From Pseudomonadota bacterium (lineage in GTDB: Bacteria; Pseudomonadota; Alphaproteobacteria; Rickettsiales; UBA3002), in assembly GCA_040384265.1 (NCBI GenBank), contig JAZKJM010000005.1:1-51165 (forward strand): a stretch of DNA of 51,165 bases, written 5' to 3'. Under the pieces are notes generated by a model. The model worked only from the letters and a program-made list of their open reading frames with translations, did not search any database and was not told the DNA's origin. Within the stretch, counting starts at the first letter, position 1. Every line of letters begins with the position of its first letter. The translations under genes and the position numbers were made by a program. Shown here piece after piece: positions 5,797 to 49,864 of this stretch.

Positions 5797-5842
5797 TTGT
5801 CTTAAAACCGTAACATGACATTGGAGGCTGGGCGGCTAGACT
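5797..5842 (+). promoter_or_regulatory. PHO-box-like site and promoter of the subtilase gene
   Basis: TTGTCTT (5797-5803), AAAA, CCGTAAC (5808-5814) form two 7-nt half-sites spaced by 4 nt, as in PhoB-binding PHO boxes. Exactly 22 nt later comes a -10-like TAGACT (5837-5842). The 20-nt core is 18/20 identical to the one in front of the 49292 gene, although the genes are unrelated. The predicted transcript would start about 10 nt before ATG 5859. Confidence 0.6.
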
Positions 5843-5858
5843 AATTAAGAATTAGTTA

Positions 5859-7607
5859 ATGAGCCTCATGCCCGAACCAATAAACAGTCGCTTAAAGAAT
5901 GCCATGAGTGCCGATTTGCGCACGCGTGAGGATGTGCTCACCTATATGGTGGAGCACGACATCCCCCACTCTACCGATTTTTATGACAAGACCCTTCCCG
6001 ATCCGGCGCTGCGCAACCAGTTTAATTATACCTATGGCCTCGATAAGCTGCCCGAACTTAATCTCAAGGAAAAGGGCGCATCCACTATTTTGGTGTTCGA
6101 ACATCAGAATATTGAAGGCTACCAGCATGGCGAGGTCAATGCGACCATCGCCCAACGGGTGGGTGAAAGCTTGCAAAAAGGCGTCGATACCATTTATGCG
6201 GCCCTCCCCATCAACTTAAGTTATCTTCCGCAGCTTGCTGAAGGCGTCAAAGACAGCGTTCGGAACTTGTTTGGTAAAATCGGCATACCCGTATTTAATA
6301 CCAGCATCGGTTGGGAAGATTCCCATTTAAGCTTCCACCAGCCGCAATTGGACAAAGAGGGCTTCCGTCGCATGACGGCTTTTTTGGTCGATTCCGCCGG
6401 CAACGATGGCATGAAAGACTATTACGGCAACGCCACCCCCGGCCAGAAGCATAATGGCGCCAGCCATTTTCCGCCGCTCGTGGTTCATGTCGGTGCTGCC
6501 GCGCAGGTGCGCGACAAGGACGGACATTGGCTTGGCCATTATAATAAAGAGGGCCGGTGGATTGGGGACTGGAACATTGAAAGCTACAGTTCCGCAAACT
6601 GCCCAACGTTCGTTGCGCCTGTTGCTTCCGCCAATAAAATTAACTGGCATGCCAATTTGCCGCAGGAAATTAGCGGCACCTCAGCCTCTGCACCCTATGC
6701 CAGCGGAATGCTCGCTACCCTGAACGCCCGTTTTGGCGCTTACCTCACCCGCGAGCAGATGCTTTATGCGGTGATTGCCACCGCGACCCCGATTGAAACC
6801 GTGGCGCAGGATAATGAAAAACCAGCCACCACCAAGCCAATCAGCTACAGCAAAACAGCAAGCGGACTTCTCTTTAACCCGGAATATGCGGGTTTTGGTC
6901 TCGTCCACCCCCACAAAGCGGATAGGCTTTTGGCGCAGATGGTTCGCTTGACGCAGGCCAACCCCAGCAGCATCACCACGCCGGTTGAGGAAATCAAGGA
7001 TCTGCTTATCCCGAACGATACAAGTCCCCCCAAAGATGCGGATGGCTTCTATAGCTACACCATCACTATGCCGCCGGGGCTTGCGCTCAAGACAACTGTT
7101 GCCATCGAATTTTCGCAAGACCATGACGCCCAAACACCGCATGGGAAAGTGACGCTAACGAGCCCTTCCAATACTACCTTCCCCATGATTATGAGTCGCC
7201 TGACTGAGTCCAAACTGGGGACGAATGGCGTTACCTATTGGCCATTTTCGAAAAAAGATGTGTTTGGCCTGAGCACCAGCCACGCATGGACGGGAGAAGA
7301 ACTCGCCGGAAGCTGGACCGTCAGAAGCACCACACCCATTCGGCATTTGCAGCTCAGCCAGCACCACTTCATGGAAAAGGACATCATCAAGGATCTGGAT
7401 GTTAAAAAACTCAGCGACATGCCGATACCTGATTTGGCGAATGCAAAAACCATCCGTGAGATGAGAGAACCAGCGGCTACGACATGGGCTGGATACGTCA
7501 CCGCACGAAGCACGCAACCCGTGGCAGACCGCACGGATTTTCTCCGCCCTGTACTTTCTGTCGAAGAGCGGCGCCAGGGCCAATCGCAATCGGGTTTCCG
7601 GGAATAA
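5859..7607 (+). CDS. Subtilase-like (S8) protein with C-terminal P-like domain
   Basis: The 582-aa protein has a peptidase S8 core. The nucleophile motif GTSASAPYASG gives Ser275, the oxyanion motif SAGNDG gives Asn182, and HGEVNATIA gives His90. The expected catalytic Asp strand reads ILVFEHQNI, so Glu81 occupies the Asp position and lies only 9 residues from His90, far closer than in subtilisin. Residues about 385-500, including TSHAWTGEELAGSWTVRS, resemble the P (proprotein convertase) domain. No signal peptide or transmembrane helix is visible, which is unusual for a subtilase. Two Met codons (5859, 5868) are possible starts and neither has a clear ribosome site. A PHO-box-like promoter precedes it. 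Confidence 0.75.
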   Translation: MSLMPEPINSRLKNAMSADLRTREDVLTYMVEHDIPHSTDFYDKTLPDPALRNQFNYTYGLDKLPELNLKEKGASTILVFEHQNIEGYQHGEVNATIAQRVGESLQKGVDTIYAALPINLSYLPQLAEGVKDSVRNLFGKIGIPVFNTSIGWEDSHLSFHQPQLDKEGFRRMTAFLVDSAGNDGMKDYYGNATPGQKHNGASHFPPLVVHVGAAAQVRDKDGHWLGHYNKEGRWIGDWNIESYSSANCPTFVAPVASANKINWHANLPQEISGTSASAPYASGMLATLNARFGAYLTREQMLYAVIATATPIETVAQDNEKPATTKPISYSKTASGLLFNPEYAGFGLVHPHKADRLLAQMVRLTQANPSSITTPVEEIKDLLIPNDTSPPKDADGFYSYTITMPPGLALKTTVAIEFSQDHDAQTPHGKVTLTSPSNTTFPMIMSRLTESKLGTNGVTYWPFSKKDVFGLSTSHAWTGEELAGSWTVRSTTPIRHLQLSQHHFMEKDIIKDLDVKKLSDMPIPDLANAKTIREMREPAATTWAGYVTARSTQPVADRTDFLRPVLSVEERRQGQSQSGFRE

Positions 7608-18297: not shown

Positions 18298-19170
18298 CTA
18301 GTGAACATGCACCGCGCCGATGGTGCTGCTTGCCACCTTAAATGTCGGTGCTGCCGGCTTCGATTGGGTGCTGGTGGCAAGTTTTGGCAACGTATCCGGG
18401 TTGACCAGCCCCGCAAATTTGCTGGAATCCGCCGGGTCGCCGGAAGCCATCATCGCCCCTTTTGTCAGCGCCACCCCAGCGATTTTCGGCTGAATCGCCT
18501 GATCGCCGCGCCGTTGCTCGTAGTGCAGATGGATGCCACCATCCGATAGGCCGCTTCTGCCCATGACACCGATTTTTTGGCCCTGCGCCACCTCTGCACC
18601 AAGTGCTGGCATATTTGTGGCGCTCATATGGCCATAGAGCGTAGAAATTCCATTAGCATGGCCAATAATGACAGCATTGCCGTATCCCGATTTTTGGCCC
18701 GAGAAGAGTGTAATGCCCCCGGCGGAGGCAAGGATATCAGGCGTGGAATCGCCACCGCGCGCACCAACATCAACACCGGCATGGTTCGTACTTGCGCCTT
18801 CGATTCCCGTATCACGATGCCCGAAACCGGATGTGATCTGTGATTTACCCAGCACCGGGCTTTTAAATACCACAGCCTCACCTTTATGGGCTTCCTGATA
18901 GGCTTTCCATTTCGGAATGACATTCGCCTGAACGATGCTTTGCCCCATGCGCAGCGTTTCAACGGGCGTATCGGGTTTTTCGCCGGGCGTTTCGTTTGGG
19001 GCTTCTTTGCCGGTGAGGAAGGATTCAAAAAAGAATTTCAGGAATCCCATGATCATCCCGAGAATTCCCTGATCCGCGGATTGGGCGGATTGCGTCAGCT
19101 CGCGTTGCTGGGCTTCGCGTGCCTTGATCTGTTCGGGCGTCTCTTTGGGAGCTGTATCGGTTCCTGCCAT
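18298..19170 (-). CDS. M23 (LytM-type) metallopeptidase domain protein
   Basis: The 290-aa protein has a C-terminal LytM fold with every metal and catalytic residue present: H130 and D134 (HAGVD), H181 (GHMS), and H214/H216 (HLH). Such enzymes cut peptidoglycan peptides. The N-terminal 110 residues are charged with one amphipathic or hydrophobic stretch ([18 protein letters not shown] at 35-52). No standard signal peptide is visible, so how it would reach the wall is unclear. ATG 19170 was chosen over GTG 19176. The predicted transcript begins at or within a base or two of this ATG. A strong PHO-box promoter precedes it. Confidence 0.82.
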
Positions 19171-19176
19171 ACTCAC

Positions 19177-19210
19177 ACTATAACCCGGCTTGATGACAGT
19201 TTGATGACAA
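19177..19210 (-). promoter_or_regulatory. PHO-box promoter of the M23 peptidase gene
   Basis: On the minus strand TTGTCAT (19210-19204), CAAA, CTGTCAT (19199-19193) is a near-perfect PHO box. Ten nt later comes TATAGT (19182-19177) as -10. This box, spacing and -10 have the same layout as the classical E. coli phoA promoter. The -10 ends six nt before ATG 19170, so the mRNA is predicted to be leaderless. Confidence 0.8.
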
Positions 19211-21491: not shown

Positions 21492-23444
21492 CTAGTGGCG
21501 TGTCGGGCTCGCCGGGTGGATGCGGGCCGGGTTGTAATCGCCACCCGAGACTATCTGTGCCCAGCGTTTATCGTGCATATCCGGGTCGTTCGCGGCATCC
21601 TGCCGGGCAAGTTCATCCGCCTTGGCGAGCAGTGCGGGATCATGGCGCACGAGGCTGCTGGCCTGCACGGTGGTGGCTGGCGGCACGGCTTTGAGCTTCG
21701 CCGGCGGTGCTTTCGCCTCCACCGGATCACCCGCTTCGCGACCGGTAATCTCATGCTCGATATGGGTGCCGAGCTTCCACATCTGCTTGAGGGATTTTCC
21801 GGCACCCTGAATATTGAACGAGGCGACATTATCAATCAGCCCGTTGATCGCGGTGTCCATTTTGCCTTGCGGATCATCCACCCGCAGGCCGGTTTCCATT
21901 TTCGCCCACATATACGGCGTGTAAGAGGTCGAGGCATCGACCCATTGGCGCATGAATTTATTGCGGTCGGCCTTATCCTTAAAGATTTTTGGCCCAATGT
22001 TTTTACTGGCCAGGTGGTCGCTAAAATTCTCGGCATGCGTGCCCAGCTTATACGATTTTTCGCCAAACCAGTTGAGGGTTTTGCTGAAGCGTGTCTCGAA
22101 TTTATCGAAGCTGGTTTCGTTCGGGTAATGCTCGTAACGCGCCGCATCGTGGAAGCCGTGGATCGGGTTGCCATCGTCATGGCCGAGGCTCGACGTGCCA
22201 TCCGCATGCATGGTCACGGTGCCTGAGCGCCACTTGCTTTGCGGCACGCGGATCAGCCAGAACGGCACCACCGCCGGGTTCATGTAGAGGTTGGCTTTGA
22301 TGAAGCTCTTCGTCACATAGCGTAGCGAGGTGCCCACCCCATCGACCGCCGCCGTGAGCGGATTGAAATGATCCGGCACGTGTGGCGTGATGCTGAAACC
22401 GCTGTCTTTCCATTTGGTAAAACCATTCGCCACCGCATCGTAGCCCTCGCGGTACATCAGCGTATACCAGTTATAGCCAACGAAGCGGGCATGCAGATCC
22501 AGCGCGCCTGCCAGTTGATAATCGCCAATGACTTTGCCTGCGGTATCGACCTTATACGCACCGCCATTCCAGTTCTTGTCGAAGGCAATTTTGTGGCCTT
22601 CGAAGCGCTTGTTGAACACATTGCTCAGGAACTGGCGCTGGAATTTCATCTGGAAGGCGTACGGAATCGCGGCGGCCCAGTCTTCGCCCTGATTTTTCGA
22701 GAAAACCTGCCAGGAGGTTTTCGCGGTGGAGCGGGCCCATTTATGCCAATCAATGTGCTTATGCTCGCCCTTGGTAGCGGCCTCGCCGTTATCGTTTACC
22801 AGCCATGGTTTTTTGATGTTGGGGTCGAATGCCTGAATGATATTACGGGTCGAGGCATCGCCGACGGAGGCCATTGCGAAATCAAACGTGAAGTTGACGA
22901 CTTCCGCGCCATAGCTGCGGCCGCGCTTGGGCTCGTTTGCGAACTGCCGGGTGCCACGAAAACGCAGCGCTTCTTCAGCTAAATGCGTGGCTTCCGCAGT
23001 GGAATGGCCAGCCATTTTGCCAATGCCTGTGGTCGCGCGGAGGATGTTTTTACCCAGAAGGGTATCGATGCCCTTCGCGATGGCCTGAAGCGGTTTTGAT
23101 TTGTCCCATGTTTCGGGGCTGTATCCCTTCAACTGACGGTCGGCAATGCGCCCGCCCCAGGTGAAGAAGGCGGCGCCGACGATGCCGCGCGAAACCAGAC
23201 GGATCGCGGCGCGGCCCGACATGCTGTCGCTCCAGGCCGGGGCATCGGTGGTGCCGGCGTTGCCGAACAGGTAATTCTGGTAGGAGCCGTTTTTCTTGCG
23301 CTGGGCGGCATCGGCTGTGGGTGTTGCGGTTTCCGGCTCGCCCTCGCCACGTGCGCCCACGCGCAGCGCCGCCAAGCGCACGCGCTCTTGCTCCTCGCTG
23401 TCGTTCAGCGGGCCGATCTGGCGTTCTGACGGGTCATTCGTCAA
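21492..23444 (-). CDS. 650-aa protein of unknown function, paired with the divergent duplicated protein
   Basis: No named family is recognised. The N-terminal 60 residues are charged and low in complexity. Residues 78-97 form a hydrophobic segment ending in WGGR (AAFFTWGGRIADRQL), which recurs in both halves of the divergent neighbour. A second apolar stretch (LYMNPAVVPFWLI) lies near residue 380. The rest is aromatic and basic (many Trp, Tyr, Lys, His), and the C-terminus is proline/alanine-rich. There is no signal peptide. The start is TTG 23444 with GAGG upstream; a four-codon reading frame overlaps it. A PHO-box-like promoter precedes it. Confidence 0.7.
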   Translation of the reverse strand: MTNDPSERQIGPLNDSEEQERVRLAALRVGARGEGEPETATPTADAAQRKKNGSYQNYLFGNAGTTDAPAWSDSMSGRAAIRLVSRGIVGAAFFTWGGRIADRQLKGYSPETWDKSKPLQAIAKGIDTLLGKNILRATTGIGKMAGHSTAEATHLAEEALRFRGTRQFANEPKRGRSYGAEVVNFTFDFAMASVGDASTRNIIQAFDPNIKKPWLVNDNGEAATKGEHKHIDWHKWARSTAKTSWQVFSKNQGEDWAAAIPYAFQMKFQRQFLSNVFNKRFEGHKIAFDKNWNGGAYKVDTAGKVIGDYQLAGALDLHARFVGYNWYTLMYREGYDAVANGFTKWKDSGFSITPHVPDHFNPLTAAVDGVGTSLRYVTKSFIKANLYMNPAVVPFWLIRVPQSKWRSGTVTMHADGTSSLGHDDGNPIHGFHDAARYEHYPNETSFDKFETRFSKTLNWFGEKSYKLGTHAENFSDHLASKNIGPKIFKDKADRNKFMRQWVDASTSYTPYMWAKMETGLRVDDPQGKMDTAINGLIDNVASFNIQGAGKSLKQMWKLGTHIEHEITGREAGDPVEAKAPPAKLKAVPPATTVQASSLVRHDPALLAKADELARQDAANDPDMHDKRWAQIVSGGDYNPARIHPASPTRH

Positions 23445-23472: not shown

Positions 23473-23518
23473 AAAATAGCACAGCGCAGGCGCGTGGTAT
23501 GTGAAGCTTTTGTGACAG
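23473..23518 (-). promoter_or_regulatory. PHO-box-like site and promoter of the 650-aa gene
   Basis: On the minus strand CTGTCAC (23518-23512), AAAA, GCTTCAC (23507-23501) are two half-sites with 4-nt spacing. Exactly 22 nt further lies TATTTT (23478-23473) as a -10. The same 22-nt spacing occurs before the subtilase and 49292 genes. The remainder of the 23445-23668 intergenic region shows only a weak candidate promoter (TATGCT near 23636) for the divergent gene. Confidence 0.55.
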
Positions 23519-29268: not shown

Positions 29269-29913
29269 TTAGCGCCCAACTCCAACGGCATCACGATTGA
29301 TGCGCTGTTCAGGATTTATTTGCTGGACCACCGGATATTCAAGCATGACTAATTCTTTTTCTGGACGCATATCGTTTACCATATCGGGCCTTCGCTCAAA
29401 TCCAGCCGTCTCTAATATCCTCAAGGAAATCGTATTTTCGGGCTCTGCCCCAGCTACTATCTGGCGCACCCCGAACTCATGGCCATGGGCTGTAAAGCCC
29501 TCGACAACCTGTTGCACCATTTTTGTTGCTAATCCTTGGTTGCGGCAAGAAGGAAGCACATAGTACCCGATTGTCGCTTTTTTTAATTTTTCATACAAAC
29601 AGACCTGCGTCTCGCCGAGCAGCTCCGCGCTTCCTTTGCGGCGTATCTGGAATTGGGCAACAGTAACATCCGCGCTATTGCTTTTAGTGTAATACCAATC
29701 ATTTAAGTGTTTCGCTATCCAAGCCGGATCCTCAAAGGAGGTTTCCTCAGGTTTCCAACCCAAGCCGCGCACCCAATCATGGTCGCTATCTAGCATCATC
29801 GCCTTAAATGGTGCGGGCTCCAAACGGTGGAGTGGAACAAATTCTAAATCACCCTGGGCTGAGAGCATGTCGGCGATCTGTTCCATTTTATGGTTATAGG
29901 CCTCTAGTTCCAC
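29269..29913 (-). CDS. GNAT family N-acetyltransferase
   Basis: The 214-aa protein has a GNAT acetyl-CoA motif (IGYYVLPSCRNQGLATKMVQ is the A-motif region, with the Q/R-x-x-G-x-A core as RNQGLA), followed by the N-x-x-S-x-x-x-L helix as ENTISLRILETAGF. The substrate cannot be read; the layout resembles ribosomal-protein or small-molecule acetyltransferases. A GTG at 29913 with AAGGAG five bases upstream is the best start; the longer frame would run antisense into pyrH. The gene is visibly AT-richer than its neighbours and points against the surrounding operon, suggesting insertion. Confidence 0.8.
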   Translation of the reverse strand: MELEAYNHKMEQIADMLSAQGDLEFVPLHRLEPAPFKAMMLDSDHDWVRGLGWKPEETSFEDPAWIAKHLNDWYYTKSNSADVTVAQFQIRRKGSAELLGETQVCLYEKLKKATIGYYVLPSCRNQGLATKMVQQVVEGFTAHGHEFGVRQIVAGAEPENTISLRILETAGFERRPDMVNDMRPEKELVMLEYPVVQQINPEQRINRDAVGVGR

Positions 29914-30058
29914 AGGCACTCCTTTTATAAGCCTGATTTTACACCAATAAGACAGGGCCAAGCATGACAGTTTCGTGAATATTGAACCGTTTTTTCCTAA
30001 TTTTTCCTTGTAATTCCGTGGAATCGCAGTAGTTCTAGGCGCAATCAGGAGATACTGC

Positions 30059-49238: not shown

Positions 49239-49284
49239 TTGTCATCAAACCGTAACACACATCGGCCTCCGGTCGGCTTACCAT
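49239..49284 (+). promoter_or_regulatory. PHO-box-like site and promoter of the 49292 gene
   Basis: TTGTCAT (49239-49245), CAAA, CCGTAAC (49250-49256) are two half-sites with 4-nt spacing. Exactly 22 nt later is the -10-like TACCAT (49279-49284). ATG 49292 follows after seven bases, so the transcript is predicted to be leaderless. The box is 18/20 identical to the one at 5796-5815. Confidence 0.62.
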
Positions 49285-49291
49285 AGTCGCC

Positions 49292-49864
49292 ATGGAGAAA
49301 AACGTGACGCATGACATCAACGCCCTGCCCCCCACTACACTCGCTGACGCCCGGGCCGCTGGCTGGCAGGTTGCACAGCTTAATTTGAGTGGAAGCAATC
49401 CCGAAGAAGGCTACCGCCAAGCCGGACTGCCAAAAAACAAGCGCGTTTTAGTGGTTATTGGCTATCAGGGCTGTAGCACCCATGATTTTCTGAAACTCGA
49501 AAACGAAGCCCGCACACAGGGCGCGGATCTGGTTGTCATTAACGGCAACACCACTGAAGCCGGTTCAGAGAAGCAAAACTACACCCCCCAGATCAATGTC
49601 CGCATCACTACACCCGAAGGCAAACCAACGCATCGACCATTAAACGGTCTCATCGTCACGCCGAAGAATGCTGACGGCACATTGATGTCACCCGCCCAAA
49701 TCAGCGAACTCGGAAACAAGCTCGGCATGCCCATCGCACGGGGTACGAACAGTAGCGACCCTGTGAGCAGCACTGGTGCAAAACTTTTTGAAAACGGCAA
49801 GCCGCTAGAATATTATAGAAAAGTGGGAATGCCGGAACGCGCAGGGGCATTCGCCCTTGGCTGA
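49292..49864 (+). CDS. 190-aa protein of unknown function, first gene of a PHO-box-led pair
   Basis: No family is recognised. The middle looks alpha/beta: strands RVLVVIGYQGCS (51-62, with a Cys61 in a nucleotide-loop-like turn), ADLVVINGN (78-86) and LNGLIVTP (118-125), separated by helices. The C-terminus is Gly/Ser/Asn-rich and polar. There is no signal peptide or membrane helix. The predicted promoter places ATG 49292 at the transcript start. The last 8 bases overlap the next gene, so the two products probably act together. Confidence 0.65.
   Translation: MEKNVTHDINALPPTTLADARAAGWQVAQLNLSGSNPEEGYRQAGLPKNKRVLVVIGYQGCSTHDFLKLENEARTQGADLVVINGNTTEAGSEKQNYTPQINVRITTPEGKPTHRPLNGLIVTPKNADGTLMSPAQISELGNKLGMPIARGTNSSDPVSSTGAKLFENGKPLEYYRKVGMPERAGAFALG

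Follow-up and report, generated by a model that had tools for sequence, protein, structure and literature searches.

A PHO-box-like promoter family of about one hundred sites, a type IV secretion operon among them, in a Rickettsiales genome, and its probable regulation by PhoB

The window analyzed here is a stretch of 51,165 nucleotides (nt) from a bacterium of the order Rickettsiales (contig C5, positions 1–51165, of our assembly G000, which has 2,004,024 bases in 9 contigs and is 95.5% complete). In it the genes for a subtilase, a 650-amino acid (aa) protein and a 190-aa protein are each preceded by a PHO-box-like direct repeat. These boxes almost certainly belong to a large and conserved promoter family of the activator type, which includes the operon of a type IV secretion system (T4SS). 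The explanation we prefer, with a probability of about 0.55, is a PhoB-family regulon that has moved from phosphate uptake to the T4SS and its probable substrates. The initial annotation had proposed a PhoB-type regulon with a fixed promoter geometry and mostly poorly understood proteins, which is borne out, but by implication also a phosphate-uptake regulon, which is not.

Within the window alone, a loose consensus gave 4 matches versus 1.6 expected, and at least 4 matches were reached in 10 of 100 shuffled sequences. Because this enrichment is near chance, genome-wide counts were needed to decide. A first pattern derived from two boxes, with up to three mismatches, gave 62 matches in the whole genome compared with 59 for the control, and hence no excess. 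With up to two mismatches, the pattern TGTCAYNNAANNKTMAYA gave 161 matches, 35 of them exact, compared with 42 for the control, and YKTMAYNNAANYKTMAYA matched exactly at 79 positions of the 2.0-Mb genome compared with 1 for its reversed control. The excess is visible with patterns of this type, which permit variation in the half-sites. The set analyzed contains 106 boxes, three copies arising from a duplication having been removed, and comes to about 102 once tandem registers are merged. The profile of the 106 boxes displays the features of a PHO box, with two TGTCA-type half-sites 11 nt apart, an A/T-rich spacer and a conserved AA, this profile being partly imposed by the search patterns that selected the boxes. 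A weight matrix made from the genome-wide set finds 6 sites of at least 15 bits in the window, 4 of which belonged to its training set, compared with a mean of 0.0 in 10 simulated windows. Paralogous spread of a single gene was rejected as the source of the family, as an all-against-all BLAST of 103 targets returned only four pairs, and one of these is spurious, a pair of open reading frames (ORFs) from the duplicated virB2 stretch.

The hexamer TANNNT, which was not part of any search pattern, follows the 106 boxes at a gap of 9 nt in 16 cases, 20 nt in 19, 21 nt in 40 and 22 nt in 7, compared with a mean of 1.47 for other gaps. A −10 element of either class is present at 78 of the 106 boxes (65 with gap 20–22, 16 with gap 9 and three with both). 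Four sets of shifted gaps used as controls gave 3–8, and a fifth, which itself holds gap 20, gave 22. The two classes are separated by approximately one helical turn, and gap 9 corresponds to the arrangement of the E. coli pstS promoter. The G standing two bases ahead of the hexamer indicates an extended −10 and, as in PHO-box promoters, the −10 lies at a fixed distance with no −35 visible. The initial annotation had suggested that the gap could accommodate a third, degenerate half-site; no such conservation is seen, as no position from 22 to 27 exceeds 0.14 bits across the 65 boxes with gap 20–22. For 94 of the 106 boxes, an ORF start (minimum length 100 aa) lies 15–150 nt downstream; flipping the box lowers this number to 57 of 106, and a Shine-Dalgarno-like motif accompanies 47 of these ORFs versus 15 in the flipped orientation.

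In what follows the box is taken as 18 nt of the form TGTC....ACA, which starts one base downstream of the 7+4+7-nt frame used originally. The three sites first reported are present at their coordinates, with hexamers TAGACT, TATTTT and TACCAT spaced by 22 nt in the original frame and by 21 nt in ours, and the 18 of 20 identity between the subtilase and 190-aa boxes is correct. The M23 promoter, which had been placed in the same regulon, is indeed a member, but with a gap of 9 rather than the same spacing. The 18-mer TGTCACAAAAGCTTCACA has 5 occurrences in the genome-wide pattern listing with up to two mismatches. The features of the window, with weight-matrix scores, are as follows.

5798–5815, + strand: PHO-box-like direct repeat TGTCTTAAAACCGTAACA, 17.7 bits
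5837–5842, + strand: −10-like hexamer TAGACT, 21 nt past the box
5859–7607, + strand: target, a 582-aa subtilase (Peptidase_S8) with no obvious signal peptide
19192–19209, − strand: box of the M23 promoter, TGTCATCAAACTGTCATC, gap-9 class, 24.0 bits
19177–19182, − strand: −10 element TATAGT, 9 nt past the M23 box
18298–19176, − strand: target, a 292-aa Peptidase_M23 protein (PF01551, 1.5e-21), start possibly the ATG at 19170
23500–23517, − strand: box of the 650-aa gene, TGTCACAAAAGCTTCACA, 26.7 bits
23563–23580, − strand: second, weaker box CTTCACACAACTGCAACA upstream of the 650-aa gene, 18.6 bits, outside the training set
23473–23478, − strand: −10-like hexamer TATTTT, 21 nt past the box
21492–23444, − strand: target, a 650-aa protein with no Pfam family
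29963–29980, − strand: further box ATTCACGAAACTGTCATG, gap 21 to TAAAAT, 19.7 bits, outside the training set
29269–29886, − strand: possible target, a 205-aa ORF, GNAT-like by eye
49240–49257, + strand: box TGTCATCAAACCGTAACA between mfd and the 190-aa gene, 29.3 bits
49279–49284, + strand: −10-like hexamer TACCAT, 21 nt past the box
49292–49864, + strand: target, a 190-aa protein with no Pfam family

In some targets the start codon lies a few bases past the −10 (window positions 19170–19182, and others), suggesting short or absent leaders.

On contig C3 a half-site array (G000:C3:337271-337299) heads virB2 (PF04956), which is followed in operon order by virB4, virB6, virB8, virB9, virB10, virB11 and virD4. 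VirB10 was found once in the genome, and the virB2-virD4 operon therefore supplies the core and the coupling protein of the only complete T4SS. The system is organized as an rvh T4SS, with a duplicated VirB4, several VirB6, a single VirB10 and clusters split between C5 (virB3-virB4-virB6) and C3 (virB2-virD4). Several VirB6 and split gene clusters are, in part, the hallmarks of this type, and the portions of PMC9352585 available give VirB4 duplication as an rvh T4SS trait. As expected of a regulon of T4SS and effectors, the box at the secretion operon recurs in relatives: among the 15 examined that have a VirB4 of the operon type (at least 35% identity, a partial 36% match in G020 being left out), 11 carry a same-strand upstream box of at least 17 bits. 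The remaining four are G012, with a weak box (12.3 bits), G008, where there is no upstream DNA, and G029 and G033, which have none. Set side by side, 11 virB promoters, our own and ten others, show TGTnA-type half-sites and a mostly CTGTGnTA-like extended −10, kept while VirB4 is 37–65% identical to the copy in our genome. At loci with the other type of VirB4, a box of at least 17 bits is present in 2 of 7 cases with PhoB and in 0 of 7 without; this contrast by PhoB presence was not used as evidence because the PhoB-less loci hold the other VirB4 type, which is box-poor even with PhoB. The virB2 gene and its box array occur twice, 1176 nt apart (G000:C3:336804-338495, L143), and the DNA that separates the two repeats the N-terminus of VirB4 (first 49 residues, 96%); this doubling is either a recent tandem duplication or an assembly effect. 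Directly downstream of virD4 are ppk1 and ppx (G000:C3:322202-325911, L143).

The boxes precede 102 distinct ORFs, of which 57 were scanned against Pfam (51 from boxes followed by a −10 of either class, 6 from boxes lacking one). A Pfam family was matched at gathering score by 6 of the 57 targets (subtilase, RTX repeats, peptidoglycan-binding, VirB2, SLT transglycosylase and M23) compared with 14 of 17 non-target ORFs of the window (Fisher p = 4e-8), where the controls are longer on average and one control miss is a doubtful ORF. Using a simple hydrophobicity rule, a signal-peptide-like N-terminus was assigned to 1 of 63 targets and about 3 of 39 in the congener G001, compared with 9 of 34 controls, which were hand-picked window ORFs. 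Among the 43 box targets in G001, 16 have homologs in the box-target set of our genome, 15 at 23–60% identity and one at 96%, with one of our own partners being a doubtful ORF; the other 27 have no homolog in that set. PhoB is 89% identical between the two genomes versus 23–60% for the targets, indicating that the regulon has been kept while its proteins change fast. Several small targets (C1:372139, C2:121883 and C2:131074 among them) contain glycine-rich hydrophobic hairpins, by eye resembling membrane-inserting effectors.

The box family extends to related genomes (G labels other than G000). Exact matches to the pattern number 18–87 in each of the 14 genomes of the family, our own included, with 0–2 in the controls, and 1–56 in 23 other families of the order, represented by one genome each, with 0–13 in the controls. 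The spacing is reproduced in G001, where 30 of the 43 sites examined in fetched stretches, out of 87 in the genome, have a −10: gap 9 occurs 5 times, gap 20 5 times, gap 21 19 times and gap 22 twice, compared with a mean of 0.72 for other gaps. In smaller samples a −10 was present at 6 of 15 boxes in G010, 3 of 10 in G018 (all gap 9), 3 of 7 in G029 and 3 of 6 in G033.

The likely regulator of this family is PhoB, as suggested by the box type, the similarity of the DNA-binding domain and covariation. The genome encodes nine Trans_reg_C proteins, with a PhoB ortholog at G000:C3:356164-356913 that scores 332 bits with the NCBIfam equivalog TIGR02154 (cut-off 296). Against solved structures, its DNA-binding domain matches E. 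coli PhoB 1gxp best, at 104 bits, with the next other protein at 74; the E. coli PhoB structures among the matches are 1gxp and 3t72, and RTVDVH.RRLRKAL in the recognition helix region is common to both PhoB proteins. Distribution across the relatives was examined for two of the nine proteins, PhoB and a ChvI-like protein. A PhoB match of 287–555 bits is present in 13 of 14 family genomes and in 12 of 23 other families. The excess of boxes over control in the 12 families with a match is 3, 4, 6, 12, 13, 18, 18, 22, 32, 33, 34 and 56, compared with −8 to 4 in the 11 families without one (Mann-Whitney p = 4.6e-5), three of the low PhoB scores being estimates. The other protein (L038), which we take to be ChvI-like from its recognition helix, has a close ortholog (57–78% identity) only in G011, G021 and G017 and is therefore not a family-wide regulator; missing from most box-rich relatives, it was rejected as the box binder.

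Taken as a PhoB-family regulon, the data suggest that a response regulator of the OmpR/PhoB family, with the PhoB ortholog as the likeliest candidate, would bind as a dimer to the two half-sites spaced by 11 nt and activate an extended −10 promoter without a −35. In the gap-9 class it would act from the position known from E. coli, and in the commoner gap 20–22 class from one helical turn upstream, immediately 5′ of the −35 position. Its targets would be the virB2-B4-B6-B8-B9-B10-B11-virD4 operon, which belongs to the only T4SS with a VirB10, and dozens of orphans without signal peptides, a few of them peptidoglycan- or protein-cleaving enzymes. On the most economical reading, a common switch would govern machine and substrates, of the kind seen with Bartonella BatR and Legionella PmrA/CpxR. 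The box targets are predicted to be translocated T4SS substrates because of their co-regulation, their missing signal peptides, the enzyme types and the analogy with BatR and PmrA/CpxR. A stronger version, in which PhoB no longer serves the phosphate genes and has become the chief regulator of the T4SS together with about 100 fast-evolving substrates in a basal-Rickettsiales-looking lineage, is conceivable, though we would put it at somewhat below even odds.

A number of observations weigh against the PhoB-family regulon proposed here. What speaks most against a plain PhoB regulon is the lack of boxes at the pst genes, which is unexpected and also the main reason for interest. Enrichment at pst and phoB had been named in the initial annotation as a check, and in our genome phoR-pstCAB, the pstS-like gene and phoB all lack a box. 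On C4 the PhoR-like kinase (below cut-off with the NCBIfam PhoR/PnpS models) is clustered with pstC and pstB, and the pstS-like gene, whose model score is also below cut-off, lies at C5:52.6–53.6 kb. The best matrix scores upstream are −7.0 for phoR, −6.0 for the pstS transcript and 2.9 bits (weak) for phoB, compared with a median of 25 for box members and a 95% point of −3.6 for random 250-nt stretches. In none of 15 genomes does a box of at least 14 bits read into the pst genes, the scan covering 3.1–7.9 kb upstream of pstB (3.1 kb in G012, 4.0 kb in G034) with the matrix trained on our own genome. The sole pst-strand box reaching 14 bits is in G001, before a separate orphan gene, and the next-best scores are 13.0 bits at 6.4 kb distance in G017 and 8.5 bits in G023. 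A classical phosphate regulon was rejected because pst lacks boxes. At the secretion genes, the second cluster virB3-virB4-virB6 on C5 has no box, and G029 and G033 are box-rich but have no clear virB4 box. The covariation also has exceptions: G011 has 47 boxes and a ChvI-like regulator, with no PhoB ortholog found in a genome that is 80% complete, whereas G020, G021 and G031 have PhoB yet only 4–6 boxes. With a match of 215 bits and 46% identity, G019 was placed among the genomes lacking PhoB, but this match adjoins pstB and may be a diverged PhoB in a genome without boxes; moving G019 to the other group leaves p = 2.5e-4. The 280-bit line for PhoB was set after the scores had been seen, and the families are not independent. 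In G010 an exact TANNNT stands at one of the four gaps in only 6 of 15 boxes. As for the targets, their substrate role is a predicted one, some of the ORFs may be wrong, and the C-terminal net charge (+0.76 for targets, +1.05 in G001 and −0.21 for controls) is descriptive, with no significance attached.

The box-less pst genes and the presence of nine Trans_reg_C proteins would also fit a different OmpR-family regulator, of the CenR or ChvI/BvrR/BatR type, binding the boxes, with PhoB covarying through joint loss in reduced genomes. We consider this unlikely. BatR is an ortholog of ChvI, and G011 combines boxes with a ChvI-like protein and no detected PhoB; the Bartonella virB2 promoter, moreover, is under BatR in the accessible parts of PMC9336547, but a close ortholog of the ChvI-like protein is confined here to the three relatives named above. 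Like our boxes, the CenR core TGA-N8-TGA repeats every 11 nt, and its opposite strand reads TCA-N8-TCA, according to the available text of PMC9275681. In that text, however, 28 of 31 CenR sites lie upstream of a −35 and are co-directional and 29 of 31 units concern envelope, transport or extracytoplasmic functions, whereas our boxes have the TCA orientation, no −35 and targets without signal peptides. With orientation, promoter type and targets all differing, a CenR regulon was rejected, and a CenR ortholog could not be identified in our genome.

A true phosphate-starvation regulon, with orphans for phosphorus stress or membrane remodelling and the T4SS as a passenger, would be in keeping with an encoded PhoB and PhoR-like kinase, the latter beside pstC and pstB, and with ppk1 and ppx next to virD4. 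Such a regulon is improbable, as pst, pstS and phoR have no box and known phosphorus genes number 0 among the 57 scanned targets. The recurrence of some 18-mers, one of them five times, might point to a strong general promoter element or a spread repeat with no specific regulator, but we give this very little credence: the flanks differ and similarity is confined to the box and −10, the targets are a biased gene class, and the virB promoter box is kept in relatives whose VirB4 is 35–65% identical.

Compared with the PHO box of E. coli, the family has the same 11-nt TGTCA-type direct repeats, lack of a −35 and conserved PhoB DNA-binding domain; in contrast, most boxes here lie one helical turn further upstream, the pst/pho genes have no boxes, and a T4SS operon and orphans take their place as targets. 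Bartonella BatR/BatS controls virB2-11 and virD4 (PMC9336547, in the portions available). The predicted control here is likewise two-component control of a virB2 promoter in an alphaproteobacterium, although by another regulator type, with virD4 in the same operon and dozens more genes with a box. In Legionella, PmrA and CpxR control about 30–40 effector genes, and CpxR also several icm/dot genes (PMC6989116, accessible text). The likeness lies in a winged-helix response regulator acting on effector genes, which here are candidates, whereas Icm/Dot is type IVB and our system is of the VirB type with a different box and about 100 sites. CenKR of Rhodobacter sphaeroides, as described in the accessible parts of PMC9275681, shares the 11-nt core period and differs in its opposite orientation, promoters with a −35 and mostly envelope or exported targets. 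That a response regulator of this family governs a T4SS and effectors is already known. Apparently new, with none found in the literature searched (titles and abstract openings, most subscription journals lying outside it), is a PHO-box version that leaves out the phosphate-uptake genes, has a second spacing class and occurs in a lineage with an rvh-like T4SS organization; no PHO-box T4SS regulon in Rickettsiales was found in the same search.

According to the accessible parts of Schön et al. 2022 (PMC9352585), deep-branching Rickettsiales have an rvh T4SS, a few RARP homologues and none of the other verified effectors, and peptidoglycan-binding 'bacteria killing' substrates were proposed. If our lineage is of this type, the promoter signature turns the open effector question into a testable candidate list, as it picks out, with the T4SS operon, dozens of signal-peptide-less orphans that include M23, a transglycosylase and a peptidoglycan-binding protein. 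The family would also plainly exemplify the rewiring of a nutrient regulator to a secretion system. Should the stronger version given above hold, the box together with its spacing would be a sequence-only detector of the effectors of these bacteria, among them peptidoglycan hydrolases suited to killing other bacteria.

Elsewhere on contig C3, an N run and a repeat encoding CHPGLVPGS...AGSRHKAGMT end a tRNA nucleotidyltransferase-like cca ORF (L105 ~1640–1745, G000:C3). Tracking the box between mfd and the 190-aa gene by way of the 190-aa protein was abandoned, as the proteins downstream of mfd in relatives have no significant similarity to it. The box after mfd is kept in three of four close relatives (L045, L055 and L057, with L055 judged by eye). 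Mfd is 76–79% identical to that of the nearest metagenome-assembled genomes, including Alphaproteobacteria bacterium 6_bin.22, Pseudomonadota bacterium KLAP13 and Rickettsiales bacterium CE-Jul18-75.
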